A stretch of DNA of 64,000 nt, from NCBI GenBank assembly GCA_016218045.1, contig JACRFB010000031.1:136908-200907 (forward strand). Direction: 5' to 3'. Origin of the DNA: Ignavibacteriota bacterium. Its GTDB lineage: Bacteria; Bacteroidota; Ignavibacteria; SZUA-365. Under the pieces are notes generated by a model. The model was not told the origin of the DNA and searched no databases. It worked only from the letters and a program-made list of their open reading frames with translations. Each line of letters opens with the position of its first letter. The stretch's first letter is position 1. Below, in pieces: positions 53,739 to 56,258 of this stretch. The translations under genes and the position numbers were made by a program.

Positions 53739-54266
53739 ATGGTATCCAGGATGATTCTGTTGCCTGTCCTCCTTGTTCTCATCCTACCAAGTTTTACACG
53801 CGCCCAGGAACAGGAGCGCCGCGACCCGCTTCTCGCGCAATTCGAGGGAAGCTGGCAGGGCGTCTGTGAAAACGACGGGAGGGACTATCCCTGCGATGTG
53901 CGCTGCTCTTGGGATTTGCAGGGTGCGTACATGGTAAGCGAGGTGAGCGTGTGGCAGGATGCAAAACGCGCACTGGTGCTGTTTGAGGAGCGTGAGTTTG
54001 CACGCACGGCGGGCGAGTCGACACACGCGCTCTATTCTTTCAGCAGCACCGGCGTCACGCGCTGGGGAACGCGACAGTGCAAGGGCGCGCACTGGACGGG
54101 CAGCGTGAAAGATTCGGACGGCCTCGGCGAGACGTTCACCCTCGATTGGAACGGCCAAAACGCATGGACCTTGACACGTCTGCTGCAGGACGAGGAGGGC
54201 AATGTTTTGAAGAAGATGGTTTTCACGATGCACAGGTCCGGCGTAAAAAAGCCGGGCGGCAAGTGA
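53739..54266 (+). CDS. Small secreted protein of unknown function
   Basis: 175 residues from ATG 53739 (GAGGAA site 8 bases ahead; a second ATG at 53751 would still leave a signal peptide). Signal MVSRMILLPVLLVLILPSFT ending RAQ, then LAQFEGSWQGVCENDGRDYPCDVRCSWDLQGAYMVSEV, reminiscent of DUF1579-like lipocalin-type folds (a short barrel opening with FxGxW). Four Cys in the first half could form disulfides. The stop overlaps the next start (GTGA). Function unknown. Confidence 0.65.
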   Translation: MVSRMILLPVLLVLILPSFTRAQEQERRDPLLAQFEGSWQGVCENDGRDYPCDVRCSWDLQGAYMVSEVSVWQDAKRALVLFEEREFARTAGESTHALYSFSSTGVTRWGTRQCKGAHWTGSVKDSDGLGETFTLDWNGQNAWTLTRLLQDEEGNVLKKMVFTMHRSGVKKPGGK

Positions 54267-54946
54267 GTCCGGTTGCTGAGATCGCGATACTCGCGGCGCT
54301 GTGGTGCGCCGCGCACAGCGTGCTGATTACTCCGCGCGTCACCGCCTATGCACGGCGCCGCTTCGGGGCTCTCTTTGCGTGGTACCGCCTCCTGTACAAT
54401 CTGTTCAGTCTCGTCTCGCTGCTCCCGCTGTTACTCTGTCTCCGTCACGCCGAAGCGCACACACTTTTTACATGGGCACAGCCGTGGATACTTGTCTCGT
54501 GGTTCGCCATCGCCGCGGCGGTGTACCTGCTCGCGGCGGGTGCGCGTGTCCACGACAACGCACATTTTTTCGGTTTCTCGCAGATCGCCGCGCAGCGACA
54601 CGGTCGCGAGGACGCCGTGCAGCCGTTTCACACCCGCGGCATCCTCGCGCGCGTGCGGCATCCCTATTACAGCGCCGGTATGCTGCTGATGATTTTTGCC
54701 GGGGATATCACGGATGTCAATCTCGCGGTGCGGATCGTGTTTCTCGTGTATCTTATTGTCGGTGCCATGCTGGAAGAAAAAAAACTGCTGGCGGAATTCG
54801 GTGATGTGTATGTGCGGTACAGGGGGAAGGTGCCGATGTTTGTACCAAAGGTGGGAAGACGAGGGACGGGGGACGAGGGACGAGGGACGGGAGACGGGGG
54901 ACGGGGACGGGGGACGGGGGACGAGGGACGGGGGAGTAGGGAGTAG
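54263..54946 (+). CDS. Membrane methyltransferase-like protein (ICMT/NnrU-like)
   Basis: 227 residues from a GTG at 54263 overlapping the previous stop. About five to six transmembrane helices and the C-terminal pattern TRGILARVRHPYYSAGMLLMIFAG ... MLEEKKLLAEFGDVYVRYRGKVPMFVP match the isoprenylcysteine methyltransferase/phospholipid methyltransferase-like family. After ~residue 195 the protein stops looking like the family: its last ~30 residues are encoded by the heptanucleotide array (Gly/Arg/Asp/Glu/Thr tail), with the stop codon inside the array. Confidence 0.75.
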   Translation: MSPVAEIAILAALWCAAHSVLITPRVTAYARRRFGALFAWYRLLYNLFSLVSLLPLLLCLRHAEAHTLFTWAQPWILVSWFAIAAAVYLLAAGARVHDNAHFFGFSQIAAQRHGREDAVQPFHTRGILARVRHPYYSAGMLLMIFAGDITDVNLAVRIVFLVYLIVGAMLEEKKLLAEFGDVYVRYRGKVPMFVPKVGRRGTGDEGRGTGDGGRGRGTGDEGRGSRE

Positions 54947-54960
54947 GGAGTGGGGAGTCG
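54858..54960 (+). repeat. Heptanucleotide tandem array (GACGRGG, then GAGTAGG)
   Basis: About fifteen consecutive ~7-nt units: GACGAGG/GACGGGG copies (one 6-nt copy at 54900-54905), turning into GAGTAGG from 54934. Its first ~89 bases code for the tail of the methyltransferase-like protein and hold its stop (54944-54946). G-runs of three or more occur in nearly every unit on the plus strand, so quadruplex formation is possible. Confidence 0.85.
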
Positions 54961-54990
54961 AAGCGTGACGTGCAGCGGGAGGCCATTCCA

Positions 54991-55022
54991 CATTGCCACC
55001 TTGCTACTTTGCTACCTTCCAC
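54991..55022 (+). repeat. Octamer array TTGCTACY
   Basis: Between 54991 and 55022 run TTGCCACC, TTGCTACT, TTGCTACC and TTCCACC-like units, about four copies of an 8-nt word. Confidence 0.6.
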
Positions 55023-55033
55023 CGCGCGCGTGT

Positions 55034-55068
55034 CACGTGTAACGTGCAACGTGTTACGTGTACTGTGC
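55034..55068 (+). repeat. Heptamer array NACGTGN
   Basis: Five 7-nt units in a row: CACGTGT, AACGTGC, AACGTGT, TACGTGT, ACTGTGC. With the two preceding arrays it fills most of the 205-base gap 54947-55151 before hydE; no promoter of the window type was seen there. Confidence 0.65.
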
Positions 55069-55151: not shown

Positions 55152-56258
55152 ATGTCGGATGAAATAAAACGTGTCGAGGCGATTCTGCGTGAAGCGGAAG
55201 AGGGGAAGGCGCCCGGTTTCGATGATGTGTGTTTTCTGTTGACGATGCGCGACGAGGAGGCCGAACGGTCGTTGCTCGCTGGCGCGTACCGCATCAAGGA
55301 GCGGATCATCGGCAGAAAAGTGTTTTTCCGCGGACTCATCGAGGTCAGCAACATCTGCGTGAAGGACTGCCTCTACTGCGGCATCCGCAAAAGCAATCGC
55401 TCGGTGGAGCGGTACATGATGAAGGAAGCCGAGATCCTTGCAGCCGCCGATTTTGCGTTTCGGAACCGGTATGGATCGATTGTGCTGCAATCGGGTGAAC
55501 GCAGCGACGCACACTTCGTCGATTTCATCGAGGATATCATCGCAAAGATCAAACAGCGGAGTGACGGCGCCCTCGGCATCACCCTTTCGTTGGGTGAGCA
55601 GAGCGAGGAAACGTACCGCCGCTGGTTCGCGGCCGGCGCGCATCGCTACCTGCTGCGTATCGAGACGTCGAGCCCGGAACTCTACCGCCGCCTGCATCCA
55701 GCGGATCACAACTTCGAGAAGCGCAGGCAATGTCTTGCGCTGCTCAAACACTGCGGCTATCAGGTCGGGACCGGCGTGATGATACGTCTTCCATTCCAGA
55801 CCTACGAGGATCTTGCGCGCGACATTCTCTTTTTCCGTGAGACCGACGTCGACATGATCGGCATGGGACCGTATCTGCCCAGCAGCAACACGCCGCTGGC
55901 GGATGAGCCCCCGGCCTCGTTTCCCATCGATATGGATCCGTATCGGCTCGCCATCCGGATGATCGCCGTGACACGTGTTGCGCTGCGCGACGTGAACATC
56001 GCCGCGACCACCGCGCTGCAGGCGTTGAAGCCCTTCGGCCGCGAGATGGGCCTGAAGGCGGGCGCAAACATCATCATGCCGAACGTCACGGACACGATGT
56101 ACAGGCCCTCGTACCAGCTCTACGACAACAAACCCTGCACCGACGAAAACGCGGACGATTGTGTGAGCTGCCTAGAGTCGCGCATCCTCGACATCGACGA
56201 GGAAATCGGGTACGGAGAATGGGGCGACTCGCGCCACTTCCGCGCCCGCGGCGCCTAA
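55152..56258 (+). CDS. hydE: HydE-like radical SAM protein
   Basis: 368 residues. Radical SAM motif CVKDCLYCG (Cys69, Cys73, Cys76); RIETSSPELYRRLHP and GTGVMIRLPFQTYEDLARDILFF are HydE/BioB-fold blocks. A second cluster motif Cys-x7-Cys-x2-Cys occurs near the C-terminus (CTDENADDCVSC), as in HydE of Thermotoga. HydE takes part in building the diiron subcluster of [FeFe] hydrogenase. No hydF, hydG or hydrogenase gene is in the window, so a true maturase role is unproven; a related PylB-like or other radical SAM role is possible. Its stop abuts the stop of the convergent cytochrome gene. Confidence 0.82.
   Translation: MSDEIKRVEAILREAEEGKAPGFDDVCFLLTMRDEEAERSLLAGAYRIKERIIGRKVFFRGLIEVSNICVKDCLYCGIRKSNRSVERYMMKEAEILAAADFAFRNRYGSIVLQSGERSDAHFVDFIEDIIAKIKQRSDGALGITLSLGEQSEETYRRWFAAGAHRYLLRIETSSPELYRRLHPADHNFEKRRQCLALLKHCGYQVGTGVMIRLPFQTYEDLARDILFFRETDVDMIGMGPYLPSSNTPLADEPPASFPIDMDPYRLAIRMIAVTRVALRDVNIAATTALQALKPFGREMGLKAGANIIMPNVTDTMYRPSYQLYDNKPCTDENADDCVSCLESRILDIDEEIGYGEWGDSRHFRARGA

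Follow-up and report, generated by a model that had tools for sequence, protein, structure and literature searches.

Does an array of 7-bp units that codes for the end of a gene act as a switch, with each unit gained or lost changing the protein, or is it there for another reason? This question is raised by a membrane methyltransferase-like gene in the window, the 64,000-nucleotide stretch of Ignavibacteriota DNA that we analysed. A sequence-only reading of the locus had described three stacked short tandem arrays, the first of them coding, and these were recovered with TRF and stood against shuffled sequence.

The window locus and its coding array

The features of the locus, in window coordinates, are as follows.

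54263..54946, + strand: coding sequence of a membrane methyltransferase-like protein, distantly MddA / isoprenylcysteine methyltransferase-like (GTG start, 227 aa)
54858..54933, + strand: array of 11 GACGRGG heptamers with G-quadruplex-type tracts, which codes for most of the array-derived C-terminal tail
54934..54960, + strand: array of four GAGTNGG heptamers, the source of the TAG stop at 54944-54946
54960..54983, + strand: unrepeated core GAAGCGTGACGTGCAGCGGGAGGC, common to three further copies of the composite (at L019 twice and at L020) and partly to L208
54984..55023, + strand: pyrimidine-rich octamer array TTGCTACY, resembling the right arm that GTAGCAAA/TTTGCTAC elements have at other places in the genome
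55028..55066, + strand: ACGTGTA heptamer array, which at other loci is the outer layer of that right arm
55152..56258, + strand: downstream HydE-type radical SAM gene, the next intergenic boundary (TIGR03956, 2e-101, above cut-off)

TRF placed the first array at 54858-54956 with periods of 7 and 21 (scores 114 and 128), the octamer array at 54988-55023 (period 8, 4.6 copies, 79% matches, score 37), and the third array at 55029-55062 (period 7, 4.9 copies, score 47). The first array could be parsed into 15 G-rich heptamers, 11 of the GACGRGG type and four of the GAGTNGG type; among the former (54858-54933), one unit is 6 bp long and one reads GACGGGA. When 54858-55068 was dinucleotide-shuffled 1000 times, no score at period 7, 14 or 21 exceeded the 51 of the best shuffle, and the heptamer scores of the first array were never reached. 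The scores of the octamer array and the third array were each attained in 0 of 1000 shuffles of their own small stretch. The octamer array is the weakest of the three: among the 1000 shuffles of 54858-55068, one attained its score of 37. A G4 pattern lies at 54863-54955 (a pattern match only), and no RNA family of Rfam matched in the window.

The window protein matched the MddA model NF045656 with an E-value of 5.9e-16 (58.5 bits, below the cut-off of 270) and NF040696 with 4.6e-5, and had no Pfam match. Within the order, 13 further genomes encode a relative, and the closest of these proteins end a few to ~14 residues past a conserved VPMFxPR motif (or its equivalent), without a repeat. The window protein carries a C-terminal tail of ~29 array-coded residues that is absent in these relatives, followed by the TAG stop at 54944-54946. 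The prediction that the first array encodes the last ~30 residues and the stop was thus correct. The GACGRGG units contain no stop triplet, and translation passes through all 11 of them until it meets the GAGTAGG units. The resulting tail, made of Arg, Gly, Asp, and Thr, is probably a by-product that the protein tolerates. The best relatives of the downstream HydE-like protein were Ignavibacteria records.

The sequence-only reading had further argued that each gained or lost unit would change the frame and length of the tail, as seven is not a multiple of three. The arithmetic is right, but the consequence did not follow. Because 7 = 1 mod 3, all frames of (GACGGGG)n encode the identical DGGRGTG cycle, while a (GAGTAGG)n array is closed by a stop within 21 nt whichever frame is read. 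When one to four units were removed or added in silico, the protein was 220-239 aa long instead of 227 (-7 to +12 residues), with the conserved part intact and the type of tail unchanged; all altered residues lay past the last residue that is conserved in the relatives. A contingency locus, in which unit gain and loss would phase-switch the protein tail or activity, is suggested by a coding array with a unit length that is no multiple of three. However, changes of one to four units alter the protein so little that phase switching is unlikely, and none of them would abolish the enzyme. In addition, the arrays described below adjoin many unrelated genes, including a tmRNA gene and a tRNA gene. 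Since a unit change switches no functional frame here, we rejected the classification as a phase-variable locus, and regard this explanation as highly improbable.

Arrays of 7- and 8-bp units across the genome

The window arrays are not the isolated case that the sequence-only reading presented, and a local curiosity could be rejected. The search for the same 7-mers elsewhere, which that reading had proposed, was strongly positive: BLAST gave ~57 further places in the same genome, and the window heptamers recurred at ~40 further sites. Three consecutive GACGRGG units had 67 matches and three GGGAGTN units 153, compared with 0 for the reversed control.

The array class was surveyed in 60 stretches (1.19 Mb) of the same genome, chosen blind to arrays. 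The counts ignore arrays under a TRF score of 40-44, and all gene-end statistics depend on gene calls from a simple home-made hexamer model. Among noncoding 21-bp windows with at least 18 matches, 935 were found at lag 7 and 861 at lag 8. Lags 9 and 13 had 23 and 14, respectively, and lags 1-6 and 10-12 had none. We placed 98 intergenic arrays in the 1.19 Mb, which extrapolates to ~394 (~400) genome-wide. Noncoding DNA makes up 12% of the sequence, and 103 of 114 arrays were mainly noncoding. Dozens of unit sequences occur, among others GACGRGG, GAGTAGG, AGGAGAC, TAGATGG, AGGGAGT, AGAATCC, CGGGACAG, GTAAAGGG, GTAGCAAA, and ACGATTAG, and octamers are about half as numerous as heptamers. One near-perfect CGTCTCACGTCTGC array of 145 bp ends within a few bases of a gene for tRNA-Arg(CCT) (L050:9713-9937, G000:C59).

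These particular units are not class-wide, as three consecutive GACGRGG units were found in one of 245 genomes of the class, and BLAST over the rest of the family gave almost no matches to the window arrays. The GTAGCAAA octamer of the window genome also forms an array in a 256 kb contig with a GC content of 0.38 (L207:11462-11528). A plasmid search with a GAGTAGG array gave no match, perhaps because of the low-complexity filter. A literature search on Ignavibacteria and tandem repeats found nothing related, judged by title.

The arrays have a nearly fixed orientation relative to genes. Near gene 3' ends the purine-rich strand was the sense strand by 39:1 (p = 7e-11), and near gene 5' ends it was the antisense strand by 9:0 (p = 0.004). 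Array-free control intergenic regions had almost no purine skew (0.507/0.491). Arrays occupied 16 of 62 convergent regions versus seven of 88 divergent regions (p = 0.005). The same outward purine polarity was found, with other units, in a genome of another genus of the same family (G006, 18:4). Heptamers such as GTGAAGA, AATGGAT, and GAGTAAA were seen in that genome, together with few octamers (L154-L173, L069-L076). In 25 IMG/VR contigs, which were chosen solely for a GGGAGTN array and in which polarity was read from a pooled gene model, the purine strand was sense by 36:1 near 3' ends, and outward polarity held by 14:5 near 5' ends. The IMG/VR contigs (L179-L206, GC 0.43-0.77) often carry further period-7 arrays of other sequence; those with GC >0.55 had 73 arrays of period 7 and one of period 8.

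Arrays often supply the stop codon of the gene that they abut. TAG was the stop of 28 of 53 array-abutting genes (53%) versus 104 of 755 others (14%; p = 1.9e-10). The array began within -20..+2 nt of the stop in 26 of the 53 abutting genes, so that the stop codon either belongs to the array or immediately adjoins its first bases. Three further genes with array-coded ends were tested, and in each the conserved domain was kept and the last few residues alone differed from relatives. In G006 the TAG excess was not significant (2 of 10 genes), and it may be a peculiarity of the units in the window genome.

Inverted pairs and composite elements

Many arrays in the genome belong to larger elements. 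Left purine arrays and right pyrimidine arrays of one region, compared as reverse complements, scored 0.444 versus 0.248 ± 0.037 after permutation (0 of 200). Inverted, nested arms are exemplified by L059, L138, L117, L129, and L146. At the last of these (L146:14915-15310, G000:C46), three tandem AGGAGAC/GTCTCCT hairpins with the loop ACGGCTTGGCACGATTAG are nested in TAGTTGG/CCAACTA arms, and the long nested stem had an RNA fold z of -17.6. Array regions were more stably folded on average (mean z -3.1 vs -1.1). Moreover, a dispersed match outside the arrays themselves was found for 22% of array regions compared with 3% of others (odds ratio ~9, p = 1e-6).

The window element belongs to a composite with four or more copies, in which a GAGTNGG array is followed by the core GAAGYGNGAYG...GGGARGCCATTCYAC, TTGCTAC octamers, and ACGTGTA heptamers. 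One copy ends ~40 bp before a tmRNA gene with the tag ANYNYALAA (L020:7513-7701, G000:C46). The left and right arms of the window element do not match each other, and its fold (z -0.10) was no better than that of shuffles; a stable hairpin at the window locus was therefore rejected. The window element looks like a mixture of two element types.

Origin of the arrays and comparison with known repeats

We consider it likely that the arrays form a slippage-prone, dispersing class of intergenic 7/8-bp repeats that is tolerated at gene ends, and that the window array is one copy of it. Units would arise and expand via replication slippage, composite blocks would be copied into new intergenic sites, and selection would retain copies at the least harmful places. 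Because stop triplets in 7- or 8-bp units recur in all three frames when the array lies just behind a stop codon with its purine strand as sense, an overgrown gene end would be harmless, and an array that grows into a gene end would halt translation fast. In the window, the array has overgrown the end of the methyltransferase gene and supplies its stop. Formation of a G4 or a stem downstream of the stop might affect mRNA 3' ends or reinitiation. Slippage accounts for the expansion of arrays, but for neither their dispersal nor the near-absence of other periods. Similarly, the frame argument explains tolerance at gene ends, yet not the missing periods of 4, 5, 10, and 11 bp. The mechanism also leaves unaccounted the outward purine strand on both sides of genes and the movement of blocks.

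A dedicated process could lay purine-rich 7/8-base repeats 3'-outward from gene ends, with the polarity of telomere repeats, making head-to-head, nested, and partly self-copying arrays in several lineages with lineage-specific units and rewriting many stop codons; we hold this to be very improbable. A functional 3' element, in which an RNA G-quadruplex, or a stem formed with the pyrimidine array, would insulate the next gene by terminating transcription, stabilising the mRNA, or acting as a ribosome termination structure, agrees with arrays that are oriented and lie directly behind stops, with the preference for convergent regions, with the lower mean fold z and the very stable fold of some elements, and with the window's G4 pattern; ribosome termination structures have also been described downstream of stop codons (PMC7518266). 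Nevertheless, the fold of the window element is unremarkable, units vary between genera, arrays occur in a minority of regions, and no regulatory role emerged from the study of Xanthomonas and Nostoc repeats (PMC4692102), so we find such a function unlikely.

It is quite unlikely that the arrays are parts of non-autonomous palindromic elements that a REP-associated Y1 transposase (RAYT) mobilises. The genome has four Y1_Tnp genes scoring above cut-off, two of them within repeat- and array-rich stretches, and both the composite cores common to several loci and the nested inverted arms would fit such mobility. However, the surroundings of the remaining two Y1 genes, which share a locus, are free of arrays; no link emerged between the arrays and a target site, a terminal motif, or a REP; and candidate REP motifs occurred in few array regions. 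The RAYT-like Y1 genes at L174 (G000:C46:36065-36400) and L176 (G000:C50:337-672) are flanked by tandem REP-like palindromes interspersed with heptamer arrays. An assembly artefact might be suspected from the ~10-fold enrichment of array sites close to the ends of contigs, where 8 were counted and 0.76 would be expected. This enrichment implies that arrays disturb assembly and that unit numbers may be wrong, possibly too low. As the source of the arrays, an artefact is extremely improbable, given that the window array is internal to a 217-kb contig and that the polarity and period rules also hold in other genomes and contigs.

The preferred reading, a dispersing repeat class tolerated at gene ends, has described counterparts. 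The sequence-only reading knew of no such case; GGGNATC repeats that share the orientation and can overlap stop codons have, however, been reported from Xanthomonas and Nostoc (PMC4692102). Its likeness to cyanobacterial heptamer repeats holds for those of Nostoc (PMC4692102). The GGGAATC / GGGGA(C/T)T repeats of these genera lie on the sense strand up to 50 bp behind stop codons, or on the antisense strand ahead of start codons, and no function was found for them (PMC4692102). The arrays described here resemble them in being of period 7, G-rich, dispersed, and mostly noncoding, with G4-type tracts, as well as in lying sense behind stops and antisense before starts, overlapping stops, and being fewer in divergent regions (PMC4692102). 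Dispersed 7-bp units, over-representation in noncoding DNA, the strand rule, and rarity in divergent regions are thus shared, but the units are not of the GGGNATC / GGGGAYT type, which makes the arrays the same kind of repeat from another sequence family. They differ further in that many unit families coexist, octamers occur beside heptamers, arrays pair as nested inverted arms, and unrepeated cores recur between loci. A preference for four units and G4 formation in vitro also count among the traits of the Xanthomonas/Nostoc type.

Other known systems are similar in part. TAACTGA repeats of Beggiatoaceae, cyanobacteria, and Bacteroidetes have stops in all three frames and were deemed harmless at gene ends (PMC4679880). 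They too are dispersed heptamers, some of which overlap gene ends; unlike the arrays here, they have a single unit, and the Maribeggiatoa copies lie mostly just upstream of start codons (PMC4679880). Cyanobacterial STRR (Calothrix, cited in PMC4692102) are likewise tandem heptanucleotides in a bacterial genome, a likeness by description. REP/RAYT palindromes (PMC3733652), a type marked by GTAG/CGTC tags, are also dispersed, intergenic, and downstream of genes, and Y1 transposases occur in the window genome; the arms here, however, are period-7/8 arrays. Ribosome termination structures (PMC7518266) share the position right behind stop codons, but are not defined by tandem repeats, and the window element has no unusual stability. 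What is new here is the host lineage, the co-occurrence of 7-bp and 8-bp units, the nesting of inverted pairs that have cores in common, and the TAG excess at array-abutting genes.

As for the question raised at the outset, the array-coded C-terminus of the window gene advises caution, as such ends need not be functional or phase variable. Why long simple repeats of bacteria are so often exactly 7 bp has been asked in both PMC4692102 and PMC4679880. This genome is a sharp data set on that question, with almost solely 7/8-bp arrays, near-absolute outward polarity, inverted pairing, and stops supplied by arrays, and the outward polarity recurs in other lineages with other units.
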